Origin: a virus
Strand: one strand, 5' to 3'
DNA length: 41,919 nt
Virus record (IMG/VR): IMGVR_UViG_3300023284_000779
Span: 1-41,919 of that record
Shown here: positions 10,697 through 34,636 of the stretch, in pieces
Layout of the letters: each line of letters begins with the position of its first letter
How positions within the stretch are numbered: position 1 is the first letter of the stretch
Program-made: the position numbers and the translations under genes
Notes under the pieces: model-generated
The model's input: only the letters and a program-made list of their open reading frames with translations
Told to the model about the DNA's origin: nothing
Database searches by the model: none

Positions 10697-11323
10697 ATGC
10701 CGAAGGATAAAGATGGGAAAGAGATTAGTCAAGAGCAGTTTGACGCTCTTTCCAAAGAAGACAAGGCCGCTGCCGTCAAGGTTGCAGGCCCCGCTCCCGA
10801 AATCAAGGCCGCAGACATCGTTGGCCTTAAAGAGTTAATGTCAGAGACTCTCACAGAGTTCGTTGCTAATGCGGAGCCGGCTCCCACTGCAACCGATGAT
10901 GGTCACCCTAAGCCTGCTACCCAAGCTGGCGAGGCAGATCCTTTGCTCAATGCTCTGGATCAGGTTACGGCCCCCAAGATCGACAAGGCTACCCTGATTG
11001 CCGAAGGTGCTCAGGACGCAGCCGTGTTCTACGCTACCCATCCCGAGGCCGTAAAACACACTGATGCCCTTGAAGCATCCTTCAAGGATATGATGGATCA
11101 AGGCCGTCCCTTCACTCGGGCCGCTCTTTTCGAGTGGTTCAAGGGAAAGAACTTTGAAAAGTTTCATGAGGAAAAAGTGAACGCAGATAAAAAGACTGCT
11201 GAGGAGGCTGAACACTCAACAACGGTTGACTCCGGTGGCCGCCCTGTGTTAGAGTCTCCTAAAGTAGACGAAGATAGTTCTGACGATGACCTGAATAAGG
11301 TTGTCGAGAACGCTCAGTTCTAA
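10697..11323 (+). CDS. Putative capsid scaffolding protein
   Basis: The 208-residue, acidic, Ala/Glu/Asp/Lys-rich protein is predicted largely helical and disordered, with no catalytic motif, and lies directly upstream of the major capsid gene. These are the usual traits of phage scaffolding proteins, which direct procapsid assembly and leave before DNA packaging. AAAGGAGG precedes the ATG. The assignment is by composition and position only. Confidence 0.65.
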   Translation: MPKDKDGKEISQEQFDALSKEDKAAAVKVAGPAPEIKAADIVGLKELMSETLTEFVANAEPAPTATDDGHPKPATQAGEADPLLNALDQVTAPKIDKATLIAEGAQDAAVFYATHPEAVKHTDALEASFKDMMDQGRPFTRAALFEWFKGKNFEKFHEEKVNADKKTAEEAEHSTTVDSGGRPVLESPKVDEDSSDDDLNKVVENAQF

Positions 11324-11472
11324 GTAGAGTAGGCACCCCTTGGATAAGGGTTTCCGCTCTACGCCTTAGCAAGCCCCGCAGTACGGTTGCATGAGACAAG
11401 CAGCCGTGTTTGAGCAGTGTGGGCTTGTCACGCAAGGGCGTGGGGGTCTCACTTAATCCAGAAAGGAAGGTG
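11324..11472 (+). ncRNA. Structured leader RNA of the major capsid gene, with pseudoknot
   Basis: The 161-base gap before the capsid gene folds well by eye. GTAGAG 11324-11329 pairs with CTCTAC 11357-11362 around a CCCTT/AAGGG hairpin (11337-11341/11346-11350). CAAGCCC 11370-11376 pairs with GGGCTTG 11421-11427, enclosing an 8-bp stem (11383-11390/11400-11407, one G-U) with a nine-base loop. CACGC/GCGTG (11429-11433/11438-11442) forms a hairpin. Loop bases TGAGAC 11392-11397 are exactly complementary to GTCTCA 11446-11451, a six-pair pseudoknot. An AAGGAAGG ribosome site (11463-11470) follows, 14 bases before the ATG. The RNA may set capsid expression or processing; the function is unknown. 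Confidence 0.65.
11445..11454 (+). repeat. Left copy of inverted 10-mer flanking the capsid gene
   Basis: GGTCTCACTT is the exact reverse complement of AAGTGAGACC at 12777-12786, three bases after the capsid stop. The leader copy includes the 3' strand of the proposed pseudoknot. Confidence 0.6.
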
Positions 11473-11484
11473 TAGAAAAATAAA

Positions 11485-12774
11485 ATGGCAACAACTTCAT
11501 TTAGCACTCTATCAACTGATGCTCCTAATGTGTGGATCGCTCGGCAGACCTTCAAGTTGGCCGAGAAGAATCTTCGCATTGGTAGACACGCTACGAAGTA
11601 CCAACTGATTCAGCGTATGGGTCTTACCCTGCGAATTGTCCGTCACAAGCGGCTCAATTTGCCTACGACTCCACTGACAGAGGGTACCGCTCCTACCGCA
11701 GTGGCACTGTCCATCGAAAACGTGGACGTTACCACAGAGCAGTGGGGTATCGTGGTGCTTCTGACTGATGTGGTTATGATAACCACAAAGCATCCTGCAC
11801 TGAATGTCGCTGTTTCGAGAACTGCCTTGGCTATGGCCGAGGTCCTTGAAAGAGAGATGGCAGTCACGCTGCTTGCTGGAACTTCAGTTGTGTACCCAGG
11901 TACGGTTACCGCTCGTACAGGTATTGGTTCTGCCGATAGGGTAGATACCGCTGCCGTGTTGAAGGCAACTACGCAGCTTCGTACCAATGGTGCAGGAGAG
12001 AGTGAAGGAGGATTGTTCGGCGGTGTTCTATCGCCGGCTCAGGAAGGAGATATTCTCGGGTCTGACCAGACTTTCAAGGATGCCAGTAACTTCGCCAACG
12101 TTAAAGCGTTGCAGTTCGGAGAAATTGGTACCTGGATGGGAGTCCGGTGGTCACGAGGTAACTTCATGCCTATATTCAAGGGTGTGGCGGCTCCCGATGG
12201 GACCGCTGCTAACGCTTCCAAGTCAAAGGCCGTGGCTAACGCTGCGCCTTCGGATGGGACGTTTGCAGGCACCTCACCCCTGATTGTCGTGGTTGCTCGT
12301 GACATCACGAGTGACTATGAAAGGCTCATCTCGCAGACTTCGGCGGCTATCACGATAGCGGCTGTGTCTGATAACGTTGATGTGACCCTTCCCTCGTCTG
12401 TCAATTTCGTCTATGACGTATATTGTGACGGTGGCGCAGCCGGTACGATGACCCTGTTCTCAGCCCGTAACGCAGCTTCGGCTGTTGTTAGCGTAACTGG
12501 CAAGGGAACTGGTGTCGTAGCTCCTGCTGCCCCTGCGGATACCCGAGAGGTGTTCGTAGCGTGGATATTCGGTGTGGATGCTTTCGGCAGAGTCGAACTA
12601 AACGGTATGTCCTTGCAGAGTTTTATAACTCCTCCAGGGGCTTCGTTTAGCAATCCTCTAGCGCAAGGAAGAAAGATCGGTTCTAAGATCATGTGGAAGT
12701 CTTTTATCATTGATAATAACTACTTCGTGAGACTGGAATCGGCTTCTACCTTCTCCGCCCAACTGCCAGCATAA
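11485..12774 (+). CDS. Major capsid protein, N4-gp56 family
   Basis: This 429-residue protein matches the N4-gp56 major capsid family (HK97 fold): an N-terminal helix, then LRIVRHKRLNLPTTPLTEGT (residues about 50-69), VTTEQWGIVVLLTDVVMITTKHP, and MAEVLEREMAVTLLAGTSVVYPG leading to the spine helix. Residues about 260-375 carry an insertion with beta-rich, Val/Ala-rich sequence (ITIAAVSDNVDVTLPSSVNF), probably a surface-exposed decoration domain. Family members run about 300-420 residues, so this fits with that added domain. It follows the scaffold candidate and has its own structured leader, consistent with very high expression. Confidence 0.9.
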   Translation: MATTSFSTLSTDAPNVWIARQTFKLAEKNLRIGRHATKYQLIQRMGLTLRIVRHKRLNLPTTPLTEGTAPTAVALSIENVDVTTEQWGIVVLLTDVVMITTKHPALNVAVSRTALAMAEVLEREMAVTLLAGTSVVYPGTVTARTGIGSADRVDTAAVLKATTQLRTNGAGESEGGLFGGVLSPAQEGDILGSDQTFKDASNFANVKALQFGEIGTWMGVRWSRGNFMPIFKGVAAPDGTAANASKSKAVANAAPSDGTFAGTSPLIVVVARDITSDYERLISQTSAAITIAAVSDNVDVTLPSSVNFVYDVYCDGGAAGTMTLFSARNAASAVVSVTGKGTGVVAPAAPADTREVFVAWIFGVDAFGRVELNGMSLQSFITPPGASFSNPLAQGRKIGSKIMWKSFIIDNNYFVRLESASTFSAQLPA

Positions 12775-26506: not shown

Positions 26507-26722
26507 TTACTTCCCCTTTTTGCTCAGTGCTTGAGTCAGGGCCGTCTGAGCCTTACCTAGCTTTGCGTTGCACTGGTTTAAGGCGTTCTCTACCTTACCT
26601 GTGTAACTAGCCCGGCGATACCTACCCATCACAAAGGTCTCAGCCATCAAGTATCCAAACCAGACCGTAAGGACAAAGGCTGCTATCTTCACCAACGGAA
26701 TTTCACTCATTCTGATTTCCAT
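26507..26722 (-). CDS. Single-TM protein with short helical tail, 71 residues
   Basis: The ATG at 26722 forms TAATG with the polymerase stop. One TM (IAAFVLTVWFGYLMAETFV) is followed by a helix NALNQCNAKLGKAQTALTQAL. The layout resembles a short inner-membrane spanin (Rz-like), but no nested lipoprotein partner is present. An internal ATG (MSEIPL) four codons in is also possible. Confidence 0.55.
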   Translation of the reverse strand: MEIRMSEIPLVKIAAFVLTVWFGYLMAETFVMGRYRRASYTGKVENALNQCNAKLGKAQTALTQALSKKGK

Positions 26723-27867
26723 TATGCTGTCTCCTTCACACCGTTAGGCCAGCGGATAGACCAACCGGCTGTTGATACAAAGTCATGCTTGTTGATCGCC
26801 CACGTTCTCTCAACGATGTCTTTGAACTTGCCTATGGTCCTGGGCTTCTCCTCATCAGTCAAGACCGTGGTGGGAACAGAGATGATTGCGGCATCGTGCT
26901 TAGGATAAACGAGGTGGTAACGCTCGTCTTCAAGTATATCCAGTATCGCTATGTTCAAAGCATCCGAGACCCAACCCTGTATCATGTGATTCCAACCTTC
27001 CTTAGCTCTGTCCCACTCATCACCAAACAGCCTGCGCCTACGACCAAACTCAGTCCGGGCCTCGCACTTCTTAGCTACTATTTTCCACCATTTCTTTTTG
27101 CAAGCGACAAGTTGCGGCTTGGAAAGGAGGAAAAGGCGTGCAGCTTCAACCAGTTCTTCACGGTTACCACCTTGTTTAACCCATTGGGCAGCATAGGCAG
27201 AGTCTTCAACCGCCTTGTGGTCTTTCCCGTAGAGAACGCAATAACGGCATTTCGCAAGGCCCCTTCTTCTGTCGTCTTTACCTTTCCAGTTGCGTGCCTC
27301 ACGCCACGCTTCGCACTCTGGGCTAGTATGTGGGTTAACGAGATTAGGTGGGAGAGGATCTCCCAACATTTTGCATGATGTAATTGTGTGTATATCATAG
27401 CCTCTCCTAAATGCTTCTAAGTCTTCTTCATCGTCTGAGTAACAAGCAACTTCCTTCGCTTCGATAGCATCGTAGTCAAAGCTTACCCAAGCAGTGCCGT
27501 CATCCGGTCCAATAACCAATTCCTGTAACGAGGTAGGAGGGTCCATATAAGGATGAGATGTAGTAACCAGTGGAGGCCGAGCAACAGACCAGCGACCCGA
27601 AGACTGTGTTGGCAGTAAGGATGGATGAACACGGACAGCTTGTTTAAAATCATGACGCATACCCTTTCCTTGATGGTCCCACTCAAACTTGTGACACTTC
27701 TCGCAGCCGGCGAAGTGGGGCATGTACTGATTCAAGCACTGAGCAGCCTCTTGGTACCGCAAGCGTAGGTCAAGGTAGTCAGACTGTAGCCCACGGTTCT
27801 CCAACTTCTTGGCAACCTCTCGGAGAACGTCTGCCTTGGTTGACCTATTTGATCTTGTTAAGCGCAT
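26722..27867 (-). CDS. DNA polymerase I family A, polymerase domain (C-terminal half of split PolA)
   Basis: The 381-residue protein starts inside the thumb/palm region and carries the family-A motifs: SSGRWS near 89-94; motif A FDYDAIEAKEV (D131, E136); motif B region RRGLAKCRYCVLYGK (202-215); GRRRRLFGDEWDRAKEGW with IQGWVSDALNIA (275-307); motif C YPKHDAAI (H324, D325). The proofreading and N-terminal regions lie in the separate ORF at 28149-29573. Counting back from YG in motif B, Tyr209 sits where E. coli Pol I has Phe762, though the motif is one residue short. The ATG at 27867 lacks a strong ribosome site and overlaps a 34-residue ORF, so coupled translation is likely. Confidence 0.9.
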   Translation of the reverse strand: MRLTRSNRSTKADVLREVAKKLENRGLQSDYLDLRLRYQEAAQCLNQYMPHFAGCEKCHKFEWDHQGKGMRHDFKQAVRVHPSLLPTQSSGRWSVARPPLVTTSHPYMDPPTSLQELVIGPDDGTAWVSFDYDAIEAKEVACYSDDEEDLEAFRRGYDIHTITSCKMLGDPLPPNLVNPHTSPECEAWREARNWKGKDDRRRGLAKCRYCVLYGKDHKAVEDSAYAAQWVKQGGNREELVEAARLFLLSKPQLVACKKKWWKIVAKKCEARTEFGRRRRLFGDEWDRAKEGWNHMIQGWVSDALNIAILDILEDERYHLVYPKHDAAIISVPTTVLTDEEKPRTIGKFKDIVERTWAINKHDFVSTAGWSIRWPNGVKETA

Positions 27868-27949: not shown

Positions 27950-28152
27950 CTGCTCCTCAAATGCACTTCGTTCCTGAGATCCAAGCTGCACAGAGCACAC
28001 GCATCATCCACATGGTTGGCTACGTGGAAGTGGGAGAAGTTACCCTTTAGCTTTTTGATTTCTGCTTCCAACTCTTTCACTTCATTTTTCAGAAGGTGGT
28101 TAGACATTAGCACAGCGTAATACTCTGCCCAAAAGTCTATAGGCAGACTCAT
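27946..28152 (-). CDS. Small coiled-coil protein with CALC motif between polymerase halves, 68 residues
   Basis: The ATG overlaps the stop of the upstream polymerase half (ATGA, 28152-28149). The protein has a helix (HLLKNEVKELEAEIKKLKG) and a C-terminal HVDDACALCSLDLRNEVH, a possible metal-binding end. It does not look like part of a polymerase, intein or homing nuclease. Because it sits exactly between the halves it may help join them. Confidence 0.6.
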   Translation of the reverse strand: MSLPIDFWAEYYAVLMSNHLLKNEVKELEAEIKKLKGNFSHFHVANHVDDACALCSLDLRNEVHLRSR

Positions 28153-29573
28153 TTCTTCCTCGGCTTAGGCAAAGCGAACTCTAACAACCTTTCAGAATCA
28201 AACAACTGCTGCGCCGTCATATCATTAGAGCTAAGGTTGATAGGCCAGCCGGCTGTAGCCTCAGCCTCAATCTGCAACTCGTCTACCTTGTCTTGTAACT
28301 TCCTAGCTATCTCGGTGGAAGGCCGCTGAATAACCCTGATCCCGATTTGGTGGGACTTACGAATGTGACGGACCAGTCTGATTTGTATGGTGTCATAAAC
28401 TCGCTTAGAATCTGGGTCTGCCCTGAACTCTCTAGCCATCTGGTCCCACACGAAATAAGTTCCTTCTGCATCTCCGCCCGAGTATACTCTAGGGTTGGAT
28501 TGTTCAAGATGTTTCCACCGGTTGAAGGGGGAGTACAGTGAACCAAGCGTGTCAAGGTCATGATCCAGTCCAGCCCAAAGGACAGCGTGCTGGTGCATCG
28601 TATCATCATAGGTATAATCCTTTCCCAGTCCAACGAACTCTTCAAGGTGTTCGATGTCTGCCATTATGTGATGAGCTATCACCAGGGGAGGAGACATCAC
28701 CGTAGGGAACATAGAGTCAAGCGCATCTTGCCTTTCAACCACGTGAACCTTCATCTCTCCGGTGGGTAGCGAAGGGTAGGCCATGCTATACCGTAGGAAG
28801 TAGTCAGTGTGCGGGTCAAACTCAGTGTCGAAAGCGAACCTCCTGGGCAGCACAACGGGCGGCATTTCTAAGATAGGTGAAGGCTTACGAGGCCACGAAC
28901 CCTTGAGTATCCTTGGGACCTTTGACCAGTCCACCTTTGCATAGATAGATGCAGTGGGGAACCGGAAGATGTAGGCCAGGTGGTTGACAGCGAGCACCGG
29001 AATACAAAGCTTGTTGTTACCCATTACTGGGGTCCATATGTCAGAGTGTATAGCCTGAGCGAAAGGCGCAGGGTTATAAGGTAGTACCCACCCACGCCAG
29101 TTAGAGATGCCATGTCCCTTCTCCAAGCCCTCTTGAGTCATGCCGTACAAACCTATCTCACCTTGAGCTACAATCAGTTTGGTCTTTTCGGGCAGCTTGA
29201 AGTGTGCGTTCATGCAGTGAGTAATCGCACACCGCAACTCAACGTTGTCAAGCGGCGGCAGTTTGTTCTTGTGGCCTGCTCTACACTTCAAGATATTCAG
29301 GATAGAAACGTTGTCTTCAGTGAGGCCAGCCACAGGGAAATACTCTCGCCTCATGGCGAAGCCGGTTTTACCAATAGCAGGCTCGGGAGGGACACTCTCG
29401 TACATAGGTTGTCCATATTTATATTCAATAAGGCGTTGACCGTGCTCCTCGTCTTCGCCGGGGTTCTGCATGACAATAGTAACCTCAGCTTGGTCGTTAA
29501 TCTTGTCAGGCACAAAGCCCTTCATGTCTCCTGCAAACGGACAGCCTCTACAGCTTTCTGGTTTGTCTAACAT
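28149..29573 (-). CDS. UDG-like domain fused to PolA 3'-5' exonuclease (N-terminal half of split PolA)
   Basis: In 474 residues, 1-200 form a family-4-like uracil-DNA glycosylase domain: Cx2C (C8, C11), QNPGEDE where family 4 has GExPG, ILKCRAGHKNKLPPLDNVELRCAITHC with C97, C115 and C120 as the rest of a 4Fe-4S set. Residues 240-400 form the proofreading exonuclease: FDTEFD (D249, E251), AHHIMADIEHL (D306) and YSGGDAEGTY (D368). The protein ends in SSNDMTAQQLFD, where PolA continues into its polymerase thumb. Phage SPO1 polymerase has the same UDG-exo-pol order in one chain. The ATG overlaps the HNH gene by 26 bases. Glycosylase activity is unproven; the domain may be structural. Confidence 0.85.
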   Translation of the reverse strand: MLDKPESCRGCPFAGDMKGFVPDKINDQAEVTIVMQNPGEDEEHGQRLIEYKYGQPMYESVPPEPAIGKTGFAMRREYFPVAGLTEDNVSILNILKCRAGHKNKLPPLDNVELRCAITHCMNAHFKLPEKTKLIVAQGEIGLYGMTQEGLEKGHGISNWRGWVLPYNPAPFAQAIHSDIWTPVMGNNKLCIPVLAVNHLAYIFRFPTASIYAKVDWSKVPRILKGSWPRKPSPILEMPPVVLPRRFAFDTEFDPHTDYFLRYSMAYPSLPTGEMKVHVVERQDALDSMFPTVMSPPLVIAHHIMADIEHLEEFVGLGKDYTYDDTMHQHAVLWAGLDHDLDTLGSLYSPFNRWKHLEQSNPRVYSGGDAEGTYFVWDQMAREFRADPDSKRVYDTIQIRLVRHIRKSHQIGIRVIQRPSTEIARKLQDKVDELQIEAEATAGWPINLSSNDMTAQQLFDSERLLEFALPKPRKK

Positions 29574-33788: not shown

Positions 33789-33868
33789 CTAGTGTAATAA
33801 GGCATCAGGAGCAGAAATATAGCAGGCAATGTGCTATTATTTTCCTTCTGGTGTCTTTTACTACTGAC

Positions 33869-33941
33869 GGCGGGGAGGCCTGGGGCCAGATCCGGCTCAT
33901 ATCCGGCTTCGAGGTAGGTTCGACTCCTACCCCCGCTACCA
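33869..33941 (+). tRNA. tRNA-Met(CAT)-like gene with shrunken D-arm
   Basis: Acceptor GGCGGGG 33869-33875 pairs with CCCCGCT 33931-33937, then A and encoded CCA to 33941. T-arm GTAGG/CCTAC with loop TTCGACT is canonical. The anticodon stem CCGG/CCGG (33892-33895/33903-33906) carries loop CTCATAT with T33 and anticodon CAT at 33898-33900. The D-arm is only GGCC-TGG-GGCC or less, giving 73 bases with CCA instead of about 76, and the anticodon stem has four good pairs. It may be a real but minimal tRNA, or a tRNA-like element. Transcribed away from the minus-strand replication genes. Confidence 0.6.
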
Positions 33942-33954
33942 CGTTTAAACGAGG
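33942..33954 (+). repeat. CGTTTAAACGAGG motif after the tRNA-like gene
   Basis: Identical 13-mer to 6976-6988. Here it lies between the CCA of the tRNA-like gene and the ribosome site of the next gene. Confidence 0.55.
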
Positions 33955-33963
33955 AAATAGTCT

Positions 33964-34173
33964 ATGGCTAAATTTAGCAACTTCATGTTCTCTGTCCCAA
34001 ATCTGCCCAAGGGCGTGTATCTGGATCTGAAGGCTATCGCTGCCCAGTTTAACCTCGATCATCAGCAGATGGTCATCCTGGGTGTCCTGTGCGTCAAGGA
34101 GATGAACAAGCTGAACAGGCAAAAGCTGATCGACCTCGTTAAAAGCCTGGGAGGTACCCACGATGCCACCTAA
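33964..34173 (+). CDS. Small unknown protein, 69 residues, first of the plus-strand mini-operon
   Basis: A largely helical protein (YLDLKAIAAQFNLDHQQMVILGVLCV, MNKLNRQKLIDLVKSLGG) with a ribosome-site-like GAGGAA. The shape suggests a small DNA-binding helix-turn-helix-like protein. Function not recognised. Confidence 0.6.
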   Translation: MAKFSNFMFSVPNLPKGVYLDLKAIAAQFNLDHQQMVILGVLCVKEMNKLNRQKLIDLVKSLGGTHDAT

Positions 34174-34193
34174 GTAAGTATCGTACTCATCTA

Positions 34194-34240
34194 AGCCCCC
34201 TGTAAGGGGGCTACGTATATATCTACTATATATATATAAG
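34194..34240 (+). other. G/C hairpin followed by TA-repeat tract
   Basis: AGCCCCC 34194-34200 pairs with GGGGGCT 34206-34212, loop TGTAA, but no T-run follows. Then comes an alternating TA-rich tract to about 34240. It may be a weak terminator, a promoter -10 region or a melting site; I cannot choose. Confidence 0.4.
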
Positions 34241-34251
34241 AGAGAGTGACA

Positions 34252-34350
34252 ATGGAGGAGATTTGGATACTTTTGGGAGTAATTTGGTTCACGGTCTTTA
34301 TCTACCTGCTCGTACAGCATTTTAGGAGTAACGATGACGATGACGAATAA
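34252..34350 (+). CDS. Tiny single-TM peptide, 32 residues
   Basis: MEEIWILLGVIWFTVFIYLL then VQHFRSNDDDDE. One TM with an acidic tail. Its 3' end overlaps the next gene (ATG at 34334) by 17 bases. No family recognised. Upstream is the TA-rich tract. Confidence 0.55.
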   Translation: MEEIWILLGVIWFTVFIYLLVQHFRSNDDDDE

Positions 34351-34636
34351 CGAAATCGACCACGAGGCCGTGACCGCCATTTTCGGCAACGGTAAAAGCA
34401 ACTCACCAGAACTCGAACTGATGGTAGCTGTTTTCATCCAGCAGAAAGACGATCTCTTCGGTGCTGAAGGTGGCAAGTTCGAGGCCGCAGCGTTACAATG
34501 GTTCAAGTCAGAGGGGGCCAAAGACACGGCAGGCCGGCCTTGGCTTTTTTCCTTTTGGAATATCTGTGAAGAGTTTGACTTAGACGCAGCAGCCGTGCGG
34601 CGAGGGATTCTATCACGGTATGAAAACCAGCCCTAA
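34334..34636 (+). CDS. Conserved phage protein, 100 residues
   Basis: AGGAG lies five bases upstream. The C-terminal part WLFSFWNICEEFDLDAAAVRRGIL resembles a widespread phage pattern ('F-x-x-V/I-C-E-x-x-x-L-D-x-x-x-x-R-R-x-L'), probably a helix-turn-helix, function unknown. It is directly followed by the ATPase gene with no gap. Confidence 0.6.
   Translation: MTMTNNEIDHEAVTAIFGNGKSNSPELELMVAVFIQQKDDLFGAEGGKFEAAALQWFKSEGAKDTAGRPWLFSFWNICEEFDLDAAAVRRGILSRYENQP

Follow-up and report, generated by a model that had tools for sequence, protein, structure and literature searches.

The 5' leaders of phage T7 gene 10 and E. coli ompA are structured or enhancing and consist of simple hairpins; to our knowledge they contain no pseudoknots and form no covarying family of the type that we describe below as class I. 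The leaders of ribosomal proteins such as S15 and L20 carry autoregulatory pseudoknots near the ribosome site of a gene for an abundant structural protein, and the exonuclease-resistant RNAs known from RNA viruses of plants and animals, which lie in 3' regions, block XRN1. In phage T4, a pseudoknot nucleates gp32 on the leader of gene 32, which contains UUAAA/UAAA repeats (PMC535899).

Here we analyse the leader of the major capsid gene in a 41.9-kb virus record, which in its entirety we call the window. Like the gene 32 operator of T4 and RB69, it places a pseudoknot in the leader of a phage mRNA, on the 5' side of the Shine-Dalgarno (SD) sequence (PMC535899). The T4 element is ~28 nt long and precedes the gene of a single-stranded-DNA-binding protein, and the window element is ~130 nt long and precedes a gene of another kind, an N4-gp56 capsid gene; it comprises the helices P1, P3, P4 and P5 with one or two loop-to-3' pseudoknots, and similarity to the gene 32 sequence is not seen. 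With the S15 and L20 leaders it shares a pseudoknot near the ribosome site and a structure conserved over sequence, but those are host genes whereas this is a phage gene, and it matches no such family in Rfam. As in exonuclease-resistant RNAs, a stem with an internal loop has an apical loop that pairs with bases just 3' of the stem; unlike them, the element precedes the capsid gene of a dsDNA phage, and ring-closing contacts were not identified. As in T7 gene 10 and ompA, a structured 5' leader precedes a capsid or envelope gene whose expression is high.

Structured phage leaders, pseudoknot operators among them, are an already known kind of element, of which the present leader, with a capsid gene downstream, is a new form absent from the catalogues. 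Literature searches, mostly without subscription papers so that an earlier description is possible, returned no description of it. A preliminary description, made from the letters of the window, had recognised no known motif in the leader, and database searches agree. Rfam 15 yields no family at its gathering threshold for the whole window on both strands, and none for 20 related loci; in the leader region, with E up to 10, the only match is DUF805b, at 12.5 bits against a threshold of 35.6. Known ribozymes (HDV-like, hammerhead, twister, pistol and hatchet) likewise give no gathering-threshold match in the window or the 20 loci, and a novel ribozyme is possible.

The capsid locus

The plus strand of the window carries head, tail and packaging genes, and the replication genes lie mostly on the minus strand. 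The capsid gene scores 107.5 bits (E 8e-31) against the NCBIfam model TIGR04387, whose cut-off is 60, which places it in the N4-gp56 family. Its start, at 11485, is separated by 161 non-coding bases from the end, at 11323, of a 208-aa ORF for which profile searches found no family match. We infer that this ORF probably encodes the scaffold, since it precedes the capsid gene and relatives share this order of genes; its counterparts there end in '...F-stop'. The features of the locus, all on the plus strand, are as follows.

10697..11323, plus: 208-aa ORF, putative scaffolding protein (ORF list; its stop codon abuts P1)
11324..11484, plus: capsid leader RNA, including SD and spacer (z -3.3; topology p 0.005-0.007)
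11324..11362, plus: P1 hairpin, loop GGAU (fold; covariation with relatives L012 and L014)
11340..11345, plus: putative PK2 5' strand UUGGAU, in the P1 apical loop (family-wide permutation)
11370..11376, plus: P3 5' arm CAAGCCC (pairs with 11421-11427)
11383..11407, plus: P4 hairpin, 8 bp, with a 9-base loop at 11391-11399 (fold; covariation with L012)
11392..11397, plus: PK1 5' strand UGAGAC, in the P4 loop (sequence)
11409..11415, plus: UUUGAGC linker between the P4 and P3 3' arms (fits the family motif UGAG / GAUG[AG])
11421..11427, plus: P3 3' arm GGGCUUG (perfect 7 bp with the 5' arm)
11429..11442, plus: P5 hairpin CACGC-AAGG-GCGUG (fold; inside a 26-base stretch identical with relative L010)
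11446..11451, plus: PK1 3' strand GUCUCA (sequence; own-versus-swapped test across 13 leaders)
11456..11461, plus: putative PK2 3' strand AUCCAG, 1 base 5' of the SD region (family-wide permutation)
11463..11472, plus: Shine-Dalgarno region AAGGAAGGUG, then an A-rich spacer of 12 bases (sequence)
11485..12774, plus: major capsid gene, N4-gp56 family (TIGR04387, phrog_1357)

The distance of 12 bases from the GGUG end of the SD to the AUG (11472-11485) is above the usual spacer length. Elsewhere in the window, DNA polymerase A is apparently split over two minus-strand ORFs (28149-29573 and 26722-27867) with a 68-aa ORF between them; the first begins with a domain like family-4 uracil-DNA glycosylases (residues 8-167), after which comes a Pol I-like part, and the second carries the polymerase domain. 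A tRNA-Met (CAT) gene at 33869-33941 on the plus strand lies opposite a predicted minus-strand ORF (33805-34527).

Structure of the window leader

The preliminary description had named five stems, all fitting together, in the bases before the capsid gene, including a perfect 7-bp enclosing stem, an 8-bp hairpin with a 9-base loop, and a 6-base pseudoknot from a loop to downstream bases near the ribosome site. All of these are present where it had placed them. The enclosing stem is P3, and the hairpin is P4, formed by ACGGUUGC and GCAGCCGU (11383-11390/11400-11407, with one G-U pair) around the loop AUGAGACAA. The pseudoknot, PK1, consists of six Watson-Crick pairs and ends 11 bases 5' of the SD at 11463. 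P1 has an outer stem of 7 bp (GUAGAGU/GCUCUAC, 11324-11330/11356-11362), further GG/CC pairs at 11332-11333/11354-11355, and an inner stem at 11337-11341/11346-11350. The nested fold also contains a helix P2 (GCCUU/GGGGU), which shares two bases with PK1 (11446-11447) and would therefore form only in part beside it. Since there are competing pairings as well (GACAAGC/GCUUGUC and CCCUUG/CAAGGG), not all possible pairs form at once.

The minimum free energy (MFE) of the leader is -61.6 kcal/mol, compared with -48.2 +/- 4.1 kcal/mol for shuffled sequences (z -3.3), and only 1 of 200 shuffles is as good. When the P3-P4-PK1 topology is scored against shuffles of the same leader, we find p=0.005-0.007. 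Just two of the 61 gene starts tested in the window reach p<=0.01, and the capsid start is one of these, with the best score among those listed. The earlier reading of this region is in part supported: a leader with a pseudoknotted fold does lie before a capsid gene of the N4-gp56 family.

Compensatory changes in close relatives

A search of IMG/VR with the capsid protein returned one close relative, L002/L012, whose capsid is 84% identical, and a further relative, L010/L014 (63% identical), whose leader is shortened. The outer stem of P1 reads GUAGAG/CUCUAC in the window, GUGAAG/CUUCAC in L012 and UUGAGG/CCUCAA in L014. Between the window and L012, two of its pairs are changed on both sides and none is broken; between the window and L014, four of the six pairs are doubly changed and all are still paired. 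P3 and P4 behave in the same way between the window and L012, with double changes in 2 of 7 pairs and in 4 of 6 inner pairs, respectively, and none broken. Absence of covariation among homologues, which had been named beforehand as evidence against the element, is therefore not what we find. PK1 is invariant in the trio, apart from the loss of its outermost pair in L012, so that covariation in these three leaders speaks neither for nor against it.

L014 is without P3, P4 and hence PK1, and retains P1, P5 and GUCUCA. Its shortened leader (L014:1898-2000) retains GGGGGUCUCA, and the loop of P1 in this leader, CUGGAC, is a perfect complement of GUCCAG, which precedes the SD. No exact match between the window and this 13-kb relative, taken over its full length, is longer than the 26 bases at 11428-11453, which are identical in L010/L014; the capsid genes of the window and L010 are 66% identical. 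The identical P5/PK1' stretch means either selection on sequence or recent exchange. Exact-pattern scans of IMG/VR for this stretch found only two relatives, both known already from the capsid search.

A family of leaders with the same topology

For a wider comparison, capsid relatives were collected and the bases before each capsid start were read. We searched the leaders of 19 divergent relatives, which we call class I, for a stem P3 that encloses a hairpin P4 whose loop pairs 3' of P3. The search was written, and the linker motif discussed below was chosen, after the leaders had been viewed; shuffles and controls were passed through the same search. Of the 19 class I leaders, 13 show the topology at p<=0.05, and nine of these even at p<=0.01 (Fisher 2e-13); of 76 control windows taken from those loci, 4 show it at p<=0.05. 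The linker between the P4 and P3 3' arms contains UGAG or GAUGA/GAUGG in 12 of 14 leaders, and in 6.6% of matches among shuffled leaders; the motif played no part in the search.

The helices of class I have wholly different sequences in divergent leaders. PK1, for example, is formed by CGAGCUGCG/CGCAGCUCG in L022, GGUGCCGUC/GACGGCAUC in L044, GUGACCC/GGGUCAC in L017 and GCAGUC/GACUGC in L034. Family-wide counting of covariation in a MAFFT alignment was dropped, as divergent leaders cannot be aligned by sequence (in the alignment of the class II leaders described below, the arms shift by one column in A5); it was replaced by shuffles and by tests of each strand against its own and against swapped partners. 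By this measure the P4 loop pairs better, on average, with its own downstream region than with a swapped one (13 leaders, P<=1e-5). P1 taken alone is not significant in most leaders (combined p 0.014); support for P1 comes from the close trio.

It is important to weigh whether these are chance hairpins, or a feature of the DNA such as a site of packaging, recombination or replication. Folding is common in intergenic DNA that is rich in GC, and standard MFE z-scores are unremarkable in several relatives (-0.6 in L012, -0.8 in L034, +0.5 in L044). Against this stand the covariation, the control windows, the polarity of the element and its spacing from the SD. The element is always on the sense strand of the capsid gene, directly 5' of the SD; in 13 leaders the order is PK1 3' strand, PK2 3' strand, SD, with gaps of 1-10 and 1-6 nt. 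The antisense strand scores lower in 12 of 14 class I leaders, and 38 of 321 pairs in class I helices are G-U pairs, which together point to an RNA rather than a DNA element. We regard chance or a DNA feature as highly improbable, and as largely refuted by these sequence comparisons. The leader has a structure conserved by covariation, with sense polarity, an association with one capsid clade and a fixed place before the SD, and we found it before this capsid gene only; it is a real, sense-strand, capsid-specific RNA element. Screening by minimum energy misses such elements, for L044 and L034 have plain z-scores yet strong pseudoknots.

In another reading, an RNase would cut upstream and the fold would halt a 5'-to-3' exonuclease, so that the capsid mRNA is long-lived. 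P1 lies at, or a few bases past, the scaffold stop in the window, L012, L014, L019 and L021, and a loop-to-3' pseudoknot resembles folds known to block exonucleases. But we find no conserved cleavage motif upstream of P1, and in L017 and L037 a long distance separates the element from the scaffold gene, and TTGACA-like promoter sequences precede it (spotted by eye in these two loci and in L015; a consensus scan called none). A block to decay or a processing site is, on balance, unlikely.

A probable second pseudoknot

In most class I leaders the P1 loop is complementary to bases directly 5' of the SD, forming a second candidate pseudoknot, PK2: GGGUCAG/CUGACCC in L017, UAGUCAGA/UCUGACUA in L021, GAGCUA/UAGCUC in L044 and CUGGAC/GUCCAG in L014. 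The own-versus-swapped test gives P 2e-5 when P1 loops are set by hand, and 0.003 when an uncurated 75-base upstream segment is used instead. For the family, these permutations make PK2 probable. We are unsure of it in the window phage, where UUGGAU/AUCCAG ranks 12th of 18 against swapped partners, a weak result, and overlaps the inner P1 stem by two bases; it covaries between the window and L014, and is not cleanly retained in L012.

Sister clade and distant relatives

A sister clade in the capsid tree (support 92/89) has a leader of a second kind, class II: an H-type pseudoknot with S1 of ~6-8 bp and S2 of ~9-14 bp, significant in 15 of the 25 leaders tested and flanked by TGTCTACTAA boxes. 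Its topology is that of the P4-PK1 core minus P3 and P5; descent of class II from class I would be a guess. The pseudoknot and boxes were seen together in L035, L036, L041, L045, L050 and L052, and also in L135, L146, L158, L162 and L163. In nine phage records the TGTCTACTAA 10-mer occurs once or twice per record, always on one strand; in five of the nine it occurs twice, ~60-150 bases apart, as in the capsid leaders. A scan of IMG/VR for paired GTCTACTAA boxes found 87 places; most are not in the capsid loci collected here and are probably due to chance.

Short boxes are repeated around the class II pseudoknot, as UUAAA/UAAA is in the gene 32 operator, and a pseudoknot with boxes around the SD is the layout of T4 gene 32 (PMC535899). 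By analogy, the leader could be an autogenous operator: free capsid or scaffold protein would bind it and cover the ribosome site, stopping capsid synthesis when assembly lags. The conservation of the 26-base P5/PK1' sequence in the window lineage, and of the GAUGA/UGAG linker across lineages, fits such a protein contact. However, there is no sign of RNA binding by these capsid proteins, no solved relative was found, and the leaders diverge almost completely while the capsids stay ~50% identical. We consider an operator possible, though we lean against it.

Homologous phages that lack the leader in the same capsid neighbourhood had also been named in advance as counting against the element, and here the outcome is graded. 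At capsid identities of ~45-84% the pseudoknotted leader is mostly kept, with L014 (63%) keeping the shortened form without P3 and P4; at <=32% (L091-L127, Pony, API480, ctUh1700) the capsid neighbourhood is kept and no such leader is found. The gaps between upstream gene and capsid in these distant relatives are short or unrelated; in the cultured or isolate-like Bacillus phage Pony, Paenibacillus API480 and ctUh1700 the gap is 7-90 bases, too short for the leader. The cto1L10 record stops just upstream of the capsid gene and so gives little information, and genome contigs gave relatives at 29-36% only.

Other RNA-like sequences occur at some of these loci. In L098, an RNA resembling group I introns lies at 735-940, either within a capsid gene of N4-gp56-like type or immediately 5' of it; it matches Rfam Intron_gpI at 33 bits (E 5e-6), under the gathering score of 50 bits, and L098:426-665 is a second, weaker match. 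The capsid leaders of L137 and L052, both of the sister clade, carry an insertion that shares gtgtacataagctctccg, located within the last 240-260 bases before the capsid start and without an Rfam match, which is perhaps another RNA element.

Proposed function

A simple switch that sequesters the SD gained no support: reserving the pseudoknot strands gave no consistent change at the SD. In a folding model without pseudoknot energies, the mean unpaired fraction of the SD over 13 leaders goes from 0.29 to 0.33 when the strands are reserved (Wilcoxon p 0.31). A further reading is a riboswitch that senses a metabolite or an ion for late expression. The fold is compact and pseudoknotted with a short conserved internal motif, and reserving the strands does raise SD accessibility in the window (0.18 to 0.30) and in L022 (0.09 to 0.40). 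Yet the effect is not significant across the 13 leaders, Rfam has no riboswitch match, and the lineages are, the linker aside, too diverged for a shared binding pocket. We regard a riboswitch as very unlikely.

Neither state hides the SD consistently, and a constitutive module fits this better than an on/off switch would. Our proposal, to which we give roughly even confidence, is that the leader acts in cis and constitutively, insulating the ribosome site of the capsid gene and guarding its message on the 5' side. The P1 hairpin would be followed by the P3-P4 domain, with the P4 loop reaching past P5 to close PK1; many relatives would add PK2, between the P1 loop and bases directly 5' of the SD. 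With both closing strands just before it, the SD and its A-rich spacer would hang from the edge of a compact fold. Such a fold could keep the ribosome site of the capsid gene apart from the scaffold message upstream, and could prevent decay or misfolding on the 5' side of the capsid message; the result would be the high capsid-to-scaffold output that head assembly requires. We infer that the module raises or sets translation or stability without a ligand.

Several observations count against a constitutive module. Nested folding gives low SD accessibility in most leaders. L014, which has no PK1, and the leaderless distant relatives still have the capsid gene. The identity of P5/PK1' in the window, L012 and L014, together with the conserved linker, suggests recognition by something, for which a purely mechanical insulator has no need. 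Our order of preference is nevertheless a constitutive module, then an autogenous operator, then a decay block or processing site, and last a ligand switch.

A broader and more speculative picture, which we rather doubt, is that of an undescribed double-pseudoknot RNA family, old in one N4-gp56 clade, in which capsid, scaffold or another factor recognises the GAUGA/UGAG linker and PK1, coupling capsid synthesis to head assembly; the sister clade would do the same job with a minimal H-type pseudoknot and TGTCTACTAA boxes as a substitute.

Promoters and ribosome sites account for most of what is understood about the capsid-to-scaffold ratio in dsDNA phages. To this control, a pseudoknotted RNA conserved with the capsid gene would add a layer at the level of RNA. 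The small size of the element, its explicitly assigned pairs and its variation among clades make it directly accessible to mutation and re-pairing.
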